Below, in pieces: positions 1,017 to 10,480 of a stretch of DNA of 64,000 nt. The stretch is from Thermodesulfovibrio sp. GTDB taxonomy: Bacteria > Nitrospirota > Thermodesulfovibrionia > Thermodesulfovibrionales > UBA6898. Under the pieces are notes generated by a model. The model searched no databases, was not told where the DNA came from, and was given only the letters and a program-made list of their open reading frames with translations. The stretch covers positions 1-64,000 of the forward strand of contig PNOC01000002.1 of NCBI GenBank assembly GCA_013824615.1, in the 5' to 3' direction. A program made the translations under genes and the position numbers. Position 1 is the first letter of the stretch. Each line of letters starts with the position of its first letter.

Positions 1017-4000
1017 TTATCTGATTGTGATATTCTCTACGGTTACAGCACCGTCGCTTATCGTGACCGATCCCCTGATGACGCTGTTGCCCGTCGGATT
1101 GCTGAATCCGCTGTCGTATCCACCCTCAAGAGAAACTGCTATGCCCGGGTGAGCGAAGTTCAGGTCCCCGGTAAACGTCAGGGCCTGGGCCTGAATGCGG
1201 TCACCGTCTACGGAGGCTGCAGCTGCCGCAGATGTCAGCGAAACCTTGCAGTCGCTGTTGACTCCGTTTAGAATGATAACCGGGTAGTTTGCGAAGTTTG
1301 CCTTTACCGTATGGTCCAACGTCACATTGTTGACCGTATAGGAATAATGATTCCCGATAACACTTACGGAACCTGTCCAGTTTATCGAGTTGTCATAGAG
1401 CCCGTAAAGATCATATCCCTTCGACGGAGTGAGCGTGCAGGTAAAACTGCCCCCATAGGCGACATCGGCTGGAGTGCACTCATTCGTCCCGCTCCCGGGT
1501 CCGCTGACAACCGTCCCTGCTATCTTATTGAGTGGATGGAGCGTTACTGTCGCAGGAGCCGATACCGCCTCGCTGTACGTGGCATCAGCAGCCTTCGTGG
1601 CGGTTATTGTACAGACGCCTGTGCTGGCGTCGGCAGTAAGCTGATCGCCCAAAACATGGCAGCTTCCGGCGGTAACCTGATATGTCACGGCCCCACCACC
1701 GCTGCCGCCTGTTGTACTCAAGGTTGCCGATGTACCGATAGTGAGATCAGATGGTGCGGAGAGAAACAATGTGCTCTGTGTAGCCAGTCCGTTACTTAAA
1801 TCAAAGATTGCAGGCAGGGCAATGCCGGAGGCAGATGCAGTGACCTGATATGTTCCGATAGTGCCATTAGCCGTTACATTAAGAGACACTGCCCCGCCCG
1901 CAATCGTCGCCTGACTTGATGACGCCGTGATGCTCGCGCCTGATGAAGGCGCCGCAAACGTTATGACACCACCGTCTACCGGTTCGCCATAGTCACTGGT
2001 GACCGTCACTCCCAGAGGAGTCGCAAAAGGAGTGCTGAACGGAGTGCTCTGAGGCGTGCCTGTCGGAGTTCCAAAACTGAATCCCCTCGATTCAAAAGCG
2101 CCGATGTCGCAGGATGCACCACGCGTTACACCGCGCTGGTCAGTCGCTGGACAATTCGTGTTCGTTCCTCTCATAGCAGCCGAGCCGGGAAGCAGCGGGA
2201 TCGTCTGCGTGCTGCCGCCGTAACTGCCAAGGGGACCAAGAAGAGGATCGGCCACTATGATGTTACTGCCGGTGCCCCCCCCCTGCACCACGCTAGCAGA
2301 GACAGTGGCTGAACCAATGATCTCGCCGCCCGTGTTGCCCCACAGGACGGTGTTCCGCATCGTGGCAGTGCCTAAAAGAATATGTATGCCGCCGCCCAAC
2401 GTTCCGGTGGCGGAATTGTCCGAAAAGGTGCTGTTTGTCACTGTCACCATCGCCTCATTACTGCCGTTATAGATGCCGCCACCTCCTCCGGCCCCGCTGA
2501 CGGAATTGCCCGAAAATGTGCTGTTGGTCACGGTAAGCGCATCGCCGTTGCTTATGCCGCCTCCGGCATAAGAGGCGGAGTTGCCCGAAAATGTGCTGCC
2601 GGTCACGGTCACCGTGCCAATATTATTGCTTAACCCGCCGCCATACGTTGTAGCATTGTTGTCCAAAAATGAGCTGTCAGTAACCGTCACTGTGCCGCCA
2701 TTGTTTCTTATTCCGCCGCCGTAGGGCGCTGTGTTGGCAGAAAATGTACTGCCCGTCACCGTCAGGACGGCCGCAGGAAGGTCATTGCATATGGCGCCGC
2801 CGCTGCAAAACGAATCGTACGTTGTGTTACTTGAAAATGTGCTGTTCGTTACTGTAAGAGTCCCCCCATAATTGCATATTGCGCCGCCGCCTGGGGTCGC
2901 CGCGGTTGCTGTATTTGAGGAAAAAGTACTGTTGGTAACCGTTACAGTGCCACGATAATTATATATGCCTCCGCTGCTGGGACCATGGCCATCAGCCACT
3001 GTTACGTTATTAAGATTGAAGGCGATAGACTGGCTGACCATGAAAACAATACACTGGCTGTTGCCGCTTACTGTCACTGAATGGCCGTCACCGTCAATCG
3101 TCACGTTCTTTGAAATCGCAAGCGTGCTCGCAAGTGAAATAGTATAGTCGCCATTAAAATTAATCGTCCCGTCGGGGCAGATATCCGCAATCGCCTGCCG
3201 GAGTGAGCCGTCGCCGCTGTCGGCATTGTTGCCTACGGTTATCGACGGATAACAAACACTTACAACCCTCGGCGAACCGAAGACGGTCGAGACATTGCCG
3301 GCCGTATCCCTGGCCCAGGGGTAAAACGTATAAGAGCCTCCCCCCCCGACCGTATAGGTACCGAGAGGCGTACCTGACCAACCGGCGTCATTGGCCGCAG
3401 GCGGGGTTGATGATTGAGTAATCATATACCCGTTCACTCCACCAGCGTCCGAAGCGGTAAAGGCCGTGATTGCTATATCGAGGCTCACTGTAGGAGACGT
3501 CACAGTGAAGGTATCGACCGTCGGCAGGACCGCATCGATTGTCCATGTATAACTCGCAGGGGTTGCATCCTTATTGCCAACCGCATCCACCGCGCTCACC
3601 TGGAACGTATGGCCTGTGCTGCTCAGCCCGCTATAACTGGCGGGGCTTGTGCAGACACTAAATGATCCGCTGTCCAGGCTGCATTCAAACCCAACGACCC
3701 CTGTTCCACTGCCGTCGTTCCCGGTAAAGCTGAAACTTGCCGATGTGCTGTTTGTCGGGTTTGAAGGATTGGAAGTAATGCTCGTATCAGGCGGAGTCGC
3801 ATCAATAACCCAGGTATAGCTCTCAGGCGCTGTATCAGCATTCCCTGCGGCATCCACCGCGCGCACCTGGAACGTATGGCCTGCACTGCTCAGACCGCTA
3901 TAACTGGCGGGGCTTATGCAGACACTAAATGGTCCGCTGTCCAGACTGCATTCAAACCCAATGACCCCTGTTCCGCTGCCGTCGTTCCCGGTAAAGCTGA

Positions 4001-7000
4001 AACTTGCCGATGTGCTGTTTGTCGGGTTTGAAGGATTGGAAGTAATGCTCGTATCAGGCGGTATCGTATCAACGACCCATGTATAACTCGCAGGCGTTGC
4101 ATCCTTATTACCGACGGAATCCACTGACCGCACCTGAAACGTATGGCTGCCCTCACCAAGAGGGCTGTATCCCTTCGGACTTGTGCAGGCGCTAAATCCT
4201 CCGCTATCCAGCTCGCACTCGAAACTGAGGGTGCCAAGTCCCCCGCTGCCGCTGAAGCTGAATAAGGCAGATGCGCTGCCCGAGGGATTTGAAGGCTTAG
4301 TATCGATCGTCGTATCCGGCGTGGCCGCGTTTGTCAGATTGAAGCTTACGCTGCCTGGCCCCCCTGCAGAGGCAGTTACCGTATAGGAACCTGGGATACC
4401 GTTTGCAGTGGCGTTTACAGTGGCGGTGCCTCCTGAGATCGTCGCAGGGCTGCCGGTTATTGATGCACTGGCTCCGCTGCCGGGTGCGATGAACGTAACC
4501 AGGCCGCCGTCCACAAACACACCTGGGTCATTTGCATTCACAGTTACGGCCAGATCTGAAGCGAAGGAAGTGTTGATGACTGCGGACTGGTTATCCCCTC
4601 CGCTTATGGTCAGGGTAAAACCCCTGGATTCAACGGCGCCGATGTCGCAGGCTGTGTTATATGGACGCGTCATGCCTCTCTGGTCTGTTGTTGGACAGCC
4701 GCTGTTGGTGCCTGCGTCTATGGCGGGTGAACCAGGCAGAAGTGCCATGGTCTGGGTCGGGCCGCCGTAGTTGCCGAGCGGGCTCAGCAGAGGAGCAACA
4801 CCAATTATATTGCCGGTTGTATCTCCGTTTATCGTAGTGCCGGCAGCTGCGCCTATCAGGTTATATCCCTGGGAATTGATGGAACCATAGACATCCGGCC
4901 CGACGGCTCCGGAATTACTGGCTATAATAGAGTTGGTTATTGTCAGGGTAGCGTTGTTTAATATGCCGCCGCCGAAAATATTTGCAGAATTGCCGGAAAT
5001 AGTACTGTTTGTCATCGTTACACTACCAGCGTTTTCTATGCCTCCGCCATTTTGGAGCGCAGAATTGCCGGAAAGGGTGCTGTTTGTTAATGACACACTG
5101 CCACGATTGAAAATGCCTCCTCCGTAGGCTGTAGTGTTGCCGGAAAGGGTGCTGTTTGTCATCGTCAGAGCGCCACTTCCTTCATTGTCGATCCCCCCGC
5201 CGTAGGTAGCTGAGGAGTTGCCGGAAATGATGCTGTTTGTCATCGTCAGAGTACCTTGATTGTATACGCCTCCGCCGTCTGCATTTACAGAGTTATCAGA
5301 AAGGGTAGTATTCGTTAATGTAACAATGCCACTAACATAGTTAGCTATTCCGCCGCCGTAGTTGCCTGCATAGTTCCCGGAAAGTACGCTATCGGTGACC
5401 GTCAGAGTGCCTTGATTGTTGATTCCTCCCCCCCTATCTGCATCCGAGCCATTTTTTATGGTCAGATTATTCAGGGAGGCGGTTACTCCTGGATAAACAA
5501 AGAAAACACCCACTGTATTTCCGCCGCTGATGTCTATTCCAGGCGATGAGGTCAGACCGTTGATCGTCATATTTTTATTGATAATCAAAAAGGTGCTGCT
5601 TAGGGTTATGGTCTGGCCGGCAAGACCCGCATCGAAATCTATCACGCCATCTGCACAGATATCTGACATAGCCTGCCTCAGTGTGCCTGGACCGCTGTCA
5701 CTGGAACTCACCACTGTGATACTGCCGGGGCAATAGGTGAACAGATCAGCGCTGCTGGTTGCACTGGTGCCGCCTAGCGTGGTTACGATTATATCAACAG
5801 TGCCTGAACCTGCCGGAGCAACCGCCGTGATCTGGATCGCAGAGTTGACTGTGAAGCTTGCCGCAGCTGTGCTGCCGAACCTGACCGCCGTAGCTCCCGT
5901 AAAATTAGTGCCGGTGATTGAAACGCTCGTCCCGCCTGACGTTGAACCGCTCGTCGGACTTATGCTGGTTACCGTGGGCGCCGGTATGTAGGTGAACTGG
6001 TCAGCTGACGAGGTGGCGCTGGTCCCCCCTGAGGTAGTGACAGTGACATCAGCGGTACCTGTTCCCGCCGGTGAGGTCGCCGTAATCTGCGTTGCAGAGT
6101 TAATTGTGAAGCTGGCTGCAGCTGTGCTGCCGAACCTGACAGCCGTGGCTCCCGTAAAATTAGTGCCGGTGATCGTGACCGAAGTGCCGCCCGCAAGCGG
6201 ACCGCTCGTCGGACTTATGCTGATTACCGTGGGCGCCGGTATGTAGGTGAACTGGTCGCTGGCCGAGGTGGCACTGGTACCGCCGGGTGTCGTAACAGCA
6301 ACGTCAACTAATCCGGCCGCATGTGCAGGCGTTGTTGCAGTTATCGTAGTTGCATTCACAACCGTTACACCTGTCGCAGCGAAGCCTGCGAAAGTCACTG
6401 AAGTAGCTCCGGTGAAGTTAGTGCCGGTGATGGTGACGGAGGTGCCGCCTACAGTCGGACCGGATGTGGGGGAAATGCCCGTAACTGTGGGTGCAGCTGC
6501 ATAAGTGAACTGGTCGGCAGAACTGGTTACACTGGTACCGCTTGGCGTGGTGACGGTTACGTCAACCGTTCCTGCAGAACCCGCAGGAGAGGTGGCAGTT
6601 ATAGTAGTAGAGTTGACAACCGTTACTCCGGTTGCGGCAGCGCCGCCAAACATAACAGCAGTCGCTCCCGTAAAGCTGGTCCCGGTGATGGTAACCGCGG
6701 TGCCGCCAACAACCGGACCGCTCGTCGGGGAGATTGAGGTGACGGTGGGCGGAGGGACAATTGTTACCGTAATGGTCCGCGTGGCTGTGGCTGTGCCGTC
6801 GCTCACCTGCACGGTAAAGGTCTCAGTGCCGCTGTAACCGGCTGCAGGCTGATAGGTGATAGTGCCGCCAGGGGTGATGTCGGCGCTGCCGGAAGCGGCA
6901 GTGGCACTGGAGAAACTGAGCGTACCGCCATGGTTCGGGGCCACGCTCTGCATCCAGGTCTCGGTCTGACTGGAGTCGGTATCGCTGACATGCAGGAGGC

Positions 7001-9434
7001 CCTTGATGTCCGTCGCGCTTGCGTTCTGGTTGACTGTCAGCGTGGTGACGGCTCCGACAAAGGTCGGGGCTGTGTTTGTGCTGGATACCGTTCCCTTTAA
7101 AATGATGTTCGAGCCGGTTCCGCTGGCGGCCGCCTGCCCGCCTGCCGGTAAATTAGTGAACCCCATTGTCGAGGTTAAATCGCCCGCTGCGTTTCTCTTG
7201 TAGCCATACCAGCGGAAAGTGATCGGTCCACTGCGTGTTCCGATTGAGGAGATATCGACATCGAAAGGCACCTGTTCAAAGGTTCCGGTCGGTGTCCAGG
7301 TAAGTGTCTGTATAAGGACATTTGATGATGCAAAGTCATCCGTACTATACCGCAGGTCTATCGTTGTCGGACCGAAGAACTGCTGAGTCGGAGGCGTCGC
7401 CGGATAATTGTCGGCGGCCACGGAAAAGGCCACCCTATTATAGGTGATCTGCTTTAGGGCGTCAGGAGTTATCCTGGCCTGGAAATATTGTCCGGCATCA
7501 TTAGACGTGGAGGTGGTCCAGTTCATAAAGAGGTATGATCCTGTGCCAGTATAGAACGTATCGGTTGTCATGGACGGTCCGGCCGTGAGATTGGTGGCGG
7601 TTATTCCAGATGCGACAGAGCCGGGGACTACATAATTAGGTCCTCCACTTTGTACCGGAATGTGAGTTCCTATGTCGTAAATGGCAAGGATATTGAATAT
7701 CTGGCGGTTCCCTGCCGGGGCAGTCACCGAAGGGGTCCTGGCTGAGCCACCGACGGTAACACTGGTGCATTGTGCATCGAGGACATTTCCGTTCGTGGCT
7801 CCAGGTGACACCGCATAGGCAAGCCAGAAATAATTCGTCCCCTCGGTGAGCGCCTGGGTCCCAGTAATGGTGAAAGATCCGCTCGGCGACGCAACTGCCG
7901 AACCAAAGGGAGTTGCCGTGGAGAAAGCCGCGGTGGTGCCGGTGTAGTAGAGTCTGGCGCTCGATATATCGGCTGGAGCCGTAGTGCCTGTGGTATTACA
8001 GGTGAAGGAAGTGGCGGTGAGCGCTGAAAGGTCACCGTTCATGGTTATCGCAATATTTACGATGTCGCCGGTGGCGCCCGGGGCAATCACGTTGGTGTTT
8101 TGCGCGACGGTGCTGGACGCATAGACCATATTCGTGGAAGAGGCATTCAGCCGCACCAGCGCAAAATCCCTTGCTGCGCCGCTGCTCGACCAGCCGGCAA
8201 TAACACTATTGTTGTCGGACTGGATGACGAGCCCAGCGTCGCCACGATCGTCGTCACCGAAATCGATGAATACATATCCACTCGAACCGAAGGAGGTATC
8301 TACAGTCCCGCCTGCATTCAGACGCGCAGCGATAAAGTCGTAATTGCCCGAAGGTCCGGTTCCATAGCCCGACAGCACTATCTTCCCGTCAGACTGTACG
8401 CCTATCCCCTTTTGAGAGTCAGACCCCGTGGTCGGGTCAAGAATGACCTTGCCAGTCGTGTTGAAAGAGGTATCGAGCGATCCGTCGGTGTTCAGACGGG
8501 CCACTGCAAAGGCATTCTGTCCTGATACATCAGTCGTCCCGCCAACCAGTATCTTGCCGTCCGACTGAAGGGCAAGACTATTTGCCGATTCTCCACCGGT
8601 CCCGAAGGCCTTGGTCCCGCTCAGCAACTGTATGCCCGATCCATTAAAACTCGTATCGAGGGCGCCGGCCGAGGTCAGGCGGACGACAGTCATCTTGTTG
8701 TTGGATCCGTCGTAACCATAGCCTGCCGCGACGATCTTGCCGTCGCTCTGCACGGCGACAGCGTTAAATGATTCATAAGTCCCGCCCGCGCTGATGGTAA
8801 AACTCGTATCGTAACTACCGTTTGTATTCAGACGCACAATGGTCGAAACGTCACCGCCGCTGTAGGACTGTCCCGCAATGAGGATCTTGCCGTCGGACTG
8901 TATCGCAACCGCCTGCCAGCTCGAATTGAGAGAGCCGATCTGCATCGTCACCTTGCCGTCGCCATCGAAGGTTGTGTCGAGACTGCCATTGGCATTGTAC
9001 CGGACAACGCCGAGGTCGTTCCGGTTGGTGGGAGAACCCCACGATGCAGCGCCAACAACGACAATCTTGTCGTCCGACTGGATTGCGACGCCCCACGGCC
9101 TGCTGAAATAGCCCGTAAGGTCCACTGTTGGCGCCTTACCATCGGTATCGAAGGTTGTGTCGAGGGTGCCGTTGGCATTATAGCGCGCAACTCCAAAAGT
9201 GTCGTAGTTGGAGGCGTTCATTACCATCCCTGCGACAACTATCTTGCCCGCATGGGTCCCCGCCGTATAGATGGCGCTTGCCGTGGCCTGGTCTGACGAA
9301 CTGTTAAAGTCCGTCTTTACCTTGCCCGCCGTCCCGAAGGACAGATCGATTGAACCCGGCGAGGCAGAGACTACTGAGGAAAAAAGAAGCGACAGGATAA
9401 TGGAACAACAGAATGCGGATACTTTGATATGCAT
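1017..9434 (-). CDS. Giant modular secreted surface protein (about 2805 aa)
   Basis: The ATG at 9434 is preferred over the ATG at 9461 because AAAGGTGAC lies just upstream and it puts the signal peptide (MHIKVSAFCCS to VVSA) at the N-terminus. Approximate modules in order: eight or so delta-60 type repeats (D-x-SF...G, IQSDGKI; residues 25-440); a module ending FWLAYAVSPGA (440-600); a Cys-poor beta region; a VCBS/cadherin-like segment (about 790-890); four IPT/TIG domains (890-1235); a first right-handed beta-helix with repeated NSTLSGN-type rungs (1235-1600); Ig-like plus three 89-residue repeats with paired Cys (1605-1970); a second beta-helix (2060-2460); Ig-like modules; and a C-terminal GGY...IRGS...IR motif. 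No transmembrane anchor or LPXTG-like tail is visible. An adhesin or matrix role is inferred. Confidence 0.85.
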   Translation of the reverse strand: MHIKVSAFCCSIILSLLFSSVVSASPGSIDLSFGTAGKVKTDFNSSSDQATASAIYTAGTHAGKIVVAGMVMNASNYDTFGVARYNANGTLDTTFDTDGKAPTVDLTGYFSRPWGVAIQSDDKIVVVGAASWGSPTNRNDLGVVRYNANGSLDTTFDGDGKVTMQIGSLNSSWQAVAIQSDGKILIAGQSYSGGDVSTIVRLNTNGSYDTSFTISAGGTYESFNAVAVQSDGKIVAAGYGYDGSNNKMTVVRLTSAGALDTSFNGSGIQLLSGTKAFGTGGESANSLALQSDGKILVGGTTDVSGQNAFAVARLNTDGSLDTSFNTTGKVILDPTTGSDSQKGIGVQSDGKIVLSGYGTGPSGNYDFIAARLNAGGTVDTSFGSSGYVFIDFGDDDRGDAGLVIQSDNNSVIAGWSSSGAARDFALVRLNASSTNMVYASSTVAQNTNVIAPGATGDIVNIAITMNGDLSALTATSFTCNTTGTTAPADISSARLYYTGTTAAFSTATPFGSAVASPSGSFTITGTQALTEGTNYFWLAYAVSPGATNGNVLDAQCTSVTVGGSARTPSVTAPAGNRQIFNILAIYDIGTHIPVQSGGPNYVVPGSVASGITATNLTAGPSMTTDTFYTGTGSYLFMNWTTSTSNDAGQYFQARITPDALKQITYNRVAFSVAADNYPATPPTQQFFGPTTIDLRYSTDDFASSNVLIQTLTWTPTGTFEQVPFDVDISSIGTRSGPITFRWYGYKRNAAGDLTSTMGFTNLPAGGQAAASGTGSNIILKGTVSSTNTAPTFVGAVTTLTVNQNASATDIKGLLHVSDTDSSQTETWMQSVAPNHGGTLSFSSATAASGSADITPGGTITYQPAAGYSGTETFTVQVSDGTATATRTITVTIVPPPTVTSISPTSGPVVGGTAVTITGTSFTGATAVMFGGAAATGVTVVNSTTITATSPAGSAGTVDVTVTTPSGTSVTSSADQFTYAAAPTVTGISPTSGPTVGGTSVTITGTNFTGATSVTFAGFAATGVTVVNATTITATTPAHAAGLVDVAVTTPGGTSATSASDQFTYIPAPTVISISPTSGPLAGGTSVTITGTNFTGATAVRFGSTAAASFTINSATQITATSPAGTGTADVTVTTSGGTSATSSADQFTYIPAPTVTSISPTSGSTSGGTSVSITGTNFTGATAVRFGSTAAASFTVNSAIQITAVAPAGSGTVDIIVTTLGGTSATSSADLFTYCPGSITVVSSSDSGPGTLRQAMSDICADGVIDFDAGLAGQTITLSSTFLIINKNMTINGLTSSPGIDISGGNTVGVFFVYPGVTASLNNLTIKNGSDADRGGGINNQGTLTVTDSVLSGNYAGNYGGGIANYVSGIVTLTNTTLSDNSVNADGGGVYNQGTLTMTNSIISGNSSATYGGGIDNEGSGALTMTNSTLSGNTTAYGGGIFNRGSVSLTNSTLSGNSALQNGGGIENAGSVTMTNSTISGNSANIFGGGILNNATLTITNSIIASNSGAVGPDVYGSINSQGYNLIGAAAGTTINGDTTGNIIGVAPLLSPLGNYGGPTQTMALLPGSPAIDAGTNSGCPTTDQRGMTRPYNTACDIGAVESRGFTLTISGGDNQSAVINTSFASDLAVTVNANDPGVFVDGGLVTFIAPGSGASASITGSPATISGGTATVNATANGIPGSYTVTASAGGPGSVSFNLTNAATPDTTIDTKPSNPSGSASALFSFSGSGGLGTLSFECELDSGGFSACTSPKGYSPLGEGSHTFQVRSVDSVGNKDATPASYTWVVDTIPPDTSITSNPSNPTNSTSASFSFTGNDGSGTGVIGFECSLDSGPFSVCISPASYSGLSSAGHTFQVRAVDAAGNADTAPESYTWVIDATPPDTSITSNPSNPTNSTSASFSFTGNDGSGTGVVGFECSLDSGSFSVCTSPASYSGLSSTGHTFQVSAVDAVGNKDATPASYTWTIDAVLPTVDTFTVTSPTVSLDIAITAFTASDAGGVNGYMITQSSTPPAANDAGWSGTPLGTYTVGGGGSYTFYPWARDTAGNVSTVFGSPRVVSVCYPSITVGNNADSGDGSLRQAIADICPDGTINFNGDYTISLASTLAISKNVTIDGDGHSVTVSGNSQCIVFMVSQSIAFNLNNVTVADGHGPSSGGIYNYRGTVTVTNSTFSSNTATAATPGGGAICNYGGTLTVTNSTFSSNTTYDSFCSGGAICNDLPAAVLTVTGSTFSANTAPYGGGIRNNGGTVTVTDSSFLDNNATTYGGGLSNNIGTVTVTGSTFSGNSASYAGGGISNGDALTVTNSTFSGNSVSGAGGGGGIYNGSNEAMVTVTNSTFSDNSATGTLGGGIHILLGTATMRNTVLWGNTGGEIIGSATVSASVVQGGGTGSNIIVADPLLGPLGSYGGSTQTIPLLPGSAAMRGTNTNCPATDQRGVTRGASCDIGAFESRGFSFGTPTGTPQSTPFSTPFATPLGVTVTSDYGEPVDGGVITFAAPSSGASITASSSQATIAGGAVSLNVTANGTIGTYQVTASASGIALPAIFDLSNGLATQSTLFLSAPSDLTIGTSATLSTTGGSGGGAVTYQVTAGSCHVLGDQLTADASTGVCTITATKAADATYSEAVSAPATVTLHPLNKIAGTVVSGPGSGTNECTPADVAYGGSFTCTLTPSKGYDLYGLYDNSINWTGSVSVIGNHYSYTVNNVTLDHTVKANFANYPVIILNGVNSDCKVSLTSAAAAASVDGDRIQAQALTFTGDLNFAHPGIAVSLEGGYDSGFSNPTGNSVIRGSVTISDGAVTVENITIR
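3530..4310 (-). repeat. Near-identical 267-bp in-frame repeats within the giant surface gene
   Basis: The segment GACACTAAAT at 3654 recurs at 3921, exactly 267 bp (89 codons) later. The surrounding sequence of the two units is nearly identical at the DNA level. A third, more diverged unit lies at about 4060-4310. Each unit encodes an Ig-like domain with FECSLDSG and a second Cys. The low DNA divergence suggests recent duplication or gene conversion, or possible assembly collapse in other strains. Confidence 0.85.
5735..6765 (-). repeat. Four tandem IPT/TIG-domain coding repeats
   Basis: Four consecutive units of about 250 bp each encode a protein repeat of the type SISPTSGP-x-GGTSVTITGT. 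Each unit ends in SSADQFTY or a close variant. Stretches of the two central units are close to identical in DNA. These are protein-domain repeats and not an array of non-coding repeats. Confidence 0.85.
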
Positions 9435-9844
9435 AATGTCACCTTTCACAATCGTTATCATCTCGGAAATGCGCTCAAAAAAAGGATCTGCGGCAAAGGG
9501 GACAGGAGGTGTGACAGTAAAGCTGACCCTCAGTTTTCCTCACCCCAACAATAATAGCCTCACCATCCCCCTGGTATCAAAACGTTTGTCACAATCTGAA
9601 TAGATAAAGCTCTTCCGCGCAAACAGTATAGCATTATTTCTTTTTTGTGTCACAATGCTAGTACGGCCCTGGGGCCCGTGGATGACAATCTCAAGCGTTT
9701 TCATAGGGGAATTATACCAGACAGCGTGCTAGGAATCTGTTAAGGATTGCGGGAAATCCAAAGGTCTTCCTTCGATCAATTCGCCCGGAAAAATATTTTT
9801 GACTATGCCGGCGCTTCATACTAAAATATGATTGAGCAGAGAGC
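9435..9844. promoter_or_regulatory. Upstream region of the giant gene with a twice-repeated TGTCACAAT
   Basis: This 410-bp region separates the divergent giant gene (-) and the candidate selenoprotein gene (+). TGTCACAAT occurs at 9587-9595 and again at 9648-9656, 61 bp apart (about six helical turns). A related CTTTCACAAT overlaps the start region of the giant gene at 9442-9451. They could be binding sites for a regulator of the surface operon, but no such regulator is identified. No convincing coding sequence is seen here. Confidence 0.3.
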
Positions 9845-10324
9845 ATGATTAGTCCAGTTAATAGAAGCTATTTTCAGAACTATACCGCCCCGGTTGCGCA
9901 GCCGGTCGATGCCCGAAATCAGCAGGCCGTTCTGCTGCCTGGAGGGAACGCAGTCCCCGGCGTTGCGGAGGCCCCGAAGGCTCAGCAGATAGGGCCGAAG
10001 GAATGCAAGACCTGACAGGGCAGGACATATAAGGATCAGTCTTCTGATTCCTCCGTATCCTTCCAGACGCCGACCTCTGTTTCCCCTGAGGCAGCGGGCA
10101 GCGCTGTTGCAGCCCATGAATACCAGCATGTTGTCCATAATGAACAGAAGGCAGAGCAGGAGGGCATGCGTGCAATATCGACGGTACAGATCCGCAGTTC
10201 TGTCTGTCCTGAGTGCGGCAGGATATATGTCTCCGGAGGAACAACCACGACCACCTTTGTGCCGAAGCAGAATCAGCCGGCCGCTGACAATCTCTCAGGC
10301 CAAAACATCGATACCTGGGCGTAA
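9845..10324 (+). CDS. Small HExxH / CxxU-CPEC protein, candidate selenoprotein with in-frame TGA
   Basis: Reading ATG 9845 to TAA 10322-10324 in one frame gives 159 residues interrupted only by TGA at codon 57 (10013-10015). Sequence flanking the TGA reads GPKECKT-(TGA)-QGRTYKD, so the TGA sits where the second Cys of a C-x-x-C pair is expected. After it come an HEYQH (HExxH, residues 91-95) and a second pair CPEC (121-124), followed by GRIYVSGGTTTT. From memory, small proteins in Firmicutes and other anaerobes share this ECxxC...HExxH...CPECG layout; no search was run. Either selenocysteine is inserted, giving a C-x-x-U site, or a Cys codon has recently become a stop. The frame after TGA is intact for 102 codons, which favours translation through it. 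The metalloprotease-like motif suggests Zn binding, but the function is unknown. The ribosome site (AGAG) is weak. Confidence 0.6.
10032..10052 (+). promoter_or_regulatory. Candidate bacterial SECIS hairpin downstream of the in-frame TGA
   Basis: The stem AGGATCAG (10032-10039) pairs with CTGA-T-TCCT (10044-10052), with a single bulged T. The loop is TCTT, or GTCTTC if the closing G-C pair opens. The loop begins about 24 nt after the TGA at 10013-10015. Bacterial SECIS elements lie within the coding region just after UGA and carry G/U in a small apical loop; the E. coli fdhF loop contains GGUCU, and here GUCU is present. This fit is by eye and no folding program was run. Confidence 0.45.
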
Positions 10325-10361: not shown

Positions 10362-10480
10362 CGGTCATTCCCGAAATCCTTAATCGGGAATCCAGCCCTT
10401 CGACAAGCTCAGGGGGACACAATGACCGGTCATGGTGAGCTTGCCGAACCATGGATCCCCGGGTCAAGCCCGAGGATGAC
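10362..10480. repeat. Intergenic dispersed-type repeat with inverted segments
   Basis: The region between the candidate selenoprotein gene and the methyltransferase gene holds two imperfect inverted segments. One is GTCATTCCCGAAATCC followed by TTAATCGGGAATCCA. The other is GGATCCCCGGGTCAAG followed by CCCGAGGATGAC. Similar GGATTCCCCGGTCAAG text recurs at 38089 in this window. This is typical of non-coding dispersed repeats in the intergenic DNA of this type of genome. It could also act as a bidirectional terminator. Confidence 0.55.

Follow-up and report, generated by a model that had tools for sequence, protein, structure and literature searches.

A UGA codon very probably read as selenocysteine in a small C-x-x-U/HExxH/CPEC protein of Thermodesulfovibrio

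The window analysed here, a stretch of 64,000 nucleotides from a Thermodesulfovibrio sp. contig (PNOC01000002.1), contains a frame of 159 codons with a TGA where a C-x-x-C motif would have its second cysteine, which raises the question of whether this codon specifies selenocysteine, marks a broken gene or is read in some other way. Recoding of the UGA at codon 57 to selenocysteine, in a 159-residue selenoprotein, is the best explanation, and we put its probability at roughly 0.93. This reading is supported by the exchange of UGA and Cys codons among homologues, purifying selection past the UGA, the sel genes of the genome and a hairpin that is kept in register, all of which bear out the selenocysteine reading proposed in the initial annotation of the locus.

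The UGA codon and its exchange with cysteine codons

The features of the gene are as follows.

9799-9827, + strand: promoter-like site TTGACT-17-TAAAAT, sigma-70-like, directly 5' of the start codon, with a consensus match of only 10/12
9845-10324, + strand: candidate selenoprotein gene, 159 codons with the UGA read as Sec, three Cys and one Sec (from homologues and dN/dS)
10004-10015, + strand: C-K-T-U motif, Cys54 to Sec57, its last column being Cys or UGA in all aligned homologues
10013-10015, + strand: putative Sec-UGA codon (codon 57), TGA also in L013, L048 and L055, TGC or TGT in the Cys homologues
10115-10129, + strand: HEYQH (HExxH), residues 91-95, with H, E and H invariant across the family
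10205-10216, + strand: CPEC, C121-P-E-C124, the second Cys codon being UGA in L048

The TGA is the sole interruption of the frame, which stays open for 102 codons beyond it and ends with a TAA at 10322; these positions, and those of the HEYQH and CPEC motifs, had been annotated correctly. All Cys and Sec residues of the window protein lie within the two C-x-x-C motifs, with HEYQH in between, and Cys is likewise absent outside these motifs in the other Sec forms.

The family comprises about 25 homologues with the architecture C-x-x-C ... HExxH ... CPECG-IYVSGG. Among 84,980 species genomes scanned, 21 relatives came to light, 20 of them with a Cys codon (TGC or TGT) in the Sec column, and in total this column holds Cys in 23 loci and TGA at the identical codon in the window gene and in L013, L048 and L055. 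Locus L013, from the Deltaproteobacteria bin RA.bin115, has its TGA at the exact Sec codon and the rest of the frame intact to the stop. When the class of this genome was searched with a profile, L048 was found on the reverse strand of a 917-kb contig of genome G445, with two in-frame TGA codons (CKT-U and CPE-U) that replace the second Cys of both motifs, and this gene is likely to encode a double selenoprotein. The same class includes genome G413, in which two decayed copies (L049 and L050) both have TGA at the second motif, as CSE-U and CLE-U. L055, with TGA at the first motif, came from a profile search of the window's class and belongs to another family of that class. The TGA is thus not private to the window's strain, as it recurs in three further genomes, one in the window's class and two in the class of L013; the assemblies of the Sec carriers examined are at draft stage. 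A weak match in another genome of the phylum (L010) turned out to be a coincidental coiled-coil similarity and was not retained.

No other family member was found among the searched genomes of the window's genus and family, and in the tree two Cys forms from Syntrophaceae fall together with the Sec forms at a support of 92/94; together these observations point to horizontal spread of the gene. A single Sec clade was neither proved nor rejected (AU test, p 0.46). Plasmid and phage records yielded no relatives. One Cys-form member (L044, 1788-2336) lies on a contig from a viral collection, which suggests that it is carried by a phage or prophage region.

In the window the gene stands alone, both neighbours being on the other strand. 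One of them (1017-9461, minus strand) encodes a protein of 2814 residues with DUF5122 beta-propeller, TIG/IPT and Ig-like domains, which is probably surface-exposed, and the other is a tRNA/rRNA uracil methyltransferase gene. The neighbourhood is not conserved among the 12 loci inspected, and a flagellin gene is nearby in L013 and L024 only. Right after the gene, positions 10380-10480 resemble a short interspersed repeat (TCGACAAGCTCAGG ... GGATCCCCGGGTCAAGCCCGAGGATGAC), present in a single copy in the window. Directly 5' of the selenoprotein gene, L013 (2369-2881) and L048 (2023-2565) have a small gene that encodes a DTVTIS-type motif and is not matched by any Pfam model; some Cys homologues contain comparable VxISxxAR stretches in their N-terminal regions.

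Past the UGA, differences between the Sec-form genes are mostly at third positions, and dN/dS is 0.11-0.18 (5 pairs with computable dS, 73-74 codons), indicating that this part of the frame is under purifying selection. The family-invariant motifs CPECG, the GG of VSGG and HExxH are all encoded 3' of the UGA, and the Sec forms retain them except for the Cys-to-Sec change in L048. Purifying selection and the retained motifs together rule out a recent nonsense mutation as a general explanation. Applied to the window gene, that explanation would make it a decaying Cys-form gene cut off at codon 57, and it can appeal to the Cys found at this column in most homologues, to the lack of the family in the other searched genomes of the genus and to the existence of decayed copies in G413. 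Such a mutation, which the initial annotation had named as its alternative, is nevertheless contradicted by the TGA at the identical codon in three other species, by the open and selected frame beyond it and by the common hairpin 3' of the TGA described below, and we regard it as very improbable.

Selenocysteine machinery and a hairpin common to the UGA forms

The genome of the window encodes a tRNA-Sec with anticodon tca (69.5 bits, above the Rfam cut-off), selB (369 bits), selA (613 bits) and a selD that itself has an in-frame TGA, so that all four sel genes, the tRNA corresponding to selC, are present and UGA recoding is available to the cell. selA and selB are also found in 4 further searched genomes of the genus, and selA in the TGA-form genomes tested (G000, G389 and G445), which include those of L013 and L048; selA is missing in most Clostridia-type Cys-form genomes. 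Reading of the UGA as Trp or Gly by a reassigned code, or ordinary read-through, would also leave the frame open, but 8 of the 27 long frames in the window end with TGA as an ordinary stop, as do the L013 and L055 genes themselves, so the code is not reassigned, and with Cys instead of Trp or Gly at the column in relatives and sel genes in the genome this reading is very improbable.

The candidate SECIS element of the window is as follows.

10031-10052, + strand: candidate bacterial SECIS hairpin, stem 10031-10038/10045-10052, loop GUCUUC at 10039-10044, 23 nt after the UGA

The window stem (AAGGAUCA/UGAUUCCU, loop GUCUUC) forms 7 of its 8 pairs in the register common to the relatives, whereas in the RNAfold minimum an inner G-C pair is closed, leaving the loop UCUU, and one U is bulged; the 29-nt core in this minimum has an energy of -7.9 kcal/mol. 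The annotated hairpin is present, and its loop, given there as GUCU, is GUCUUC in the shared register. The published bSECIS model sets a loop of 3-9 nt with a G in the first two positions, an upper stem of 4-16 bp, a distance of 16-37 nt from the UGA and an MFE of at most -7.5 (PMC13188914); the window hairpin falls within these constraints. By itself the hairpin is weak evidence, since its energy is not exceptional: the z-score is -1.4 for 53 nt and -2.3 for the 29-nt core, and 28% of synonymous recodings give an equally stable SECIS-like hairpin.

It is the retention of the hairpin, in the same register, across four UGA-containing genes that sets it apart from chance. The corresponding stems are AGGGAUCG/UGAUCCCU in L055 (loop GUCCGA) and AAGGACCA/UGAUUCUU in both L013 and L048 (loop GUCUGG), and in an ungapped alignment with the same bases paired the loop starts 23 nt after the UGA in all four Sec genes, where G-U invariably opens it. 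A loop-initial G is found in none of the 18 Cys genes compared. The RNAalifold consensus of the four Sec sequences is this hairpin, with an energy that 0.85% of recodings match or surpass. The four genes together form 29 of the 32 pairs, where synonymous recodings average 17.5; none of 20,000 recodings reached this number, nor did any of 5,000 when any register having the loop G was allowed, although the joint probability is overstated because the four genes share ancestry. One pair is altered on both sides, from A-U to G-C; covariation counts for the four sequences are not significant, and shuffling the columns of a four-row alignment is a test of little power. The hairpin codons show only modest conservation at synonymous sites (p 0.024, three-sequence test).

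L048 and both G413 remnants have a second SECIS-like hairpin, 3' of the second motif, with its loop 18 nt after the UGA there. A second SECIS element in L048 is plausible, yet this hairpin is indistinguishable from those of some Cys genes, which form a similar fold because the V-S-G-G codons favour it, and the candidate was set aside.

Taken as a mechanism, SelB, guided by the hairpin whose loop starts 23 nt past the UGA, would insert selenocysteine from Sec-tRNA(UCA) at codon 57. Sec57 would take the place of the second Cys in the first C-x-x-C motif. This motif belongs to a small conserved domain, in which C-x-x-C/U is followed by the HExxH helix and then by CPECG on a beta hairpin.

Structure and possible function

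No Pfam or NCBIfam model scores above cut-off with the window protein, and no convincing E-value to any such model was obtained among 18 members. In the AlphaFold models (pLDDT 70, or 80 for the domain alone) there is a short helix at the first CxxC, HExxH is on a long helix, and CPEC occupies the turn of a beta hairpin. Fold searches with two predicted models gave nothing above noise in the PDB or viral libraries; similarities to flagellar rod/hook and POTRA folds were weak (Z below 5) and were set aside. The four Cys/Sec positions and the H, E and H of HExxH are invariant across the family, and from this arrangement we infer that the two CxxC/U pairs build a compact site and that HExxH may provide a second metal site.

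The occurrence of Sec at these positions suggests that the second Cys of each CxxC is the reactive residue, and since selenium usually marks such a residue these cysteines should be chemically important. A redox function of the protein, at a putative thiol/selenol site, has about an even chance of being correct. A selenenylsulfide redox pair would be the likeliest use of the C-x-x-U, which would probably lie beside a metal site of the other CxxC and perhaps of HExxH, and the small protein is probably metal-binding.

Metal ligation is the main rival to a redox role. The two CxxC motifs may constitute a zinc-ribbon-like structural or catalytic metal site in which Sec is a ligand without a redox function, and HExxH would add another metal site of the kind seen in zinc peptidases. 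The invariance of all seven residues and the lack of other Cys in the Sec forms agree with such a site, as do similarities, weak and below threshold, to zinc-ribbon profiles and Zn_peptidase_2 (at best 12.4 bits, against a cut-off of 27). However, neither a profile above cut-off nor a solved fold was matched, and a 2026 review places Sec-for-Cys exchanges in known bacterial families mostly at redox motifs, so that a purely ligating Sec is possible and has less in its favour than the selenenylsulfide pair. For a putative zinc-metallopeptidase role the HExxH motif is in place, and no third metal ligand was identified. Less probable still is an elaborate arrangement in L048, in which the two selenolates and two thiolates of C-x-x-U and C-P-E-U would form one site beside the HExxH helix, acting either as a selenolate-ligated metal centre or as a two-Sec relay, and a single short gene would contain two SECIS hairpins; this would be undescribed for catalogued selenoproteins, and we consider it unlikely.

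Comparison with known selenoproteins

Standard gene callers truncate or miss such genes, and a selenium-dependent protein of uncultured bacteria is consequently invisible in databases. The present case would add a family to the approximately 119 prokaryotic ones, together with a widespread Cys-form family, and the Sec positions offer a way to test what that entire Cys family does. Among the 119 families or subfamilies of prokaryotic selenoproteins in the 2026 review we found no match (those without a Pfam or NCBIfam identifier were compared by name and motif only), and there was neither a matching model in the NCBIfam release of June 2026 nor a report of the family in open-licence papers. The initial annotation's view that a Sec version of an HExxH/CPEC family would be new holds against Pfam, NCBIfam and this catalogue. 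On the strength of these absences we regard it as a selenoprotein family that is new but of a known kind, its double-Sec variant being unusual.

Three groups of known proteins come closest. The FmdB-type CxxC-CxxC zinc ribbon (TIGR02605), listed in the review as a UxxU selenoprotein, is alike in having two CxxC motifs in which Sec can replace Cys, but the window protein scores 13.2 bits against a cut-off of 31.3, and the family described here differs in the HExxH helix between the motifs and in having Sec solely at the second Cys (CxxU). The AhpD-like and SelW-like selenoproteins share the C-x-x-U arrangement and the existence of Cys homologues, whereas none of their Pfam or NCBIfam models match and the motifs around the Sec are different. 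Nearest are the Cys-form homologues (L011-L031, from Clostridia, Treponema, Armatimonadota, Thermotogota and Syntrophaceae), which have the same domain with 32-54% identity over the aligned protein and differ in having TGC or TGT in place of the TGA, in a loop without the initial G and, in most of the Clostridia genomes, in the absence of selA.
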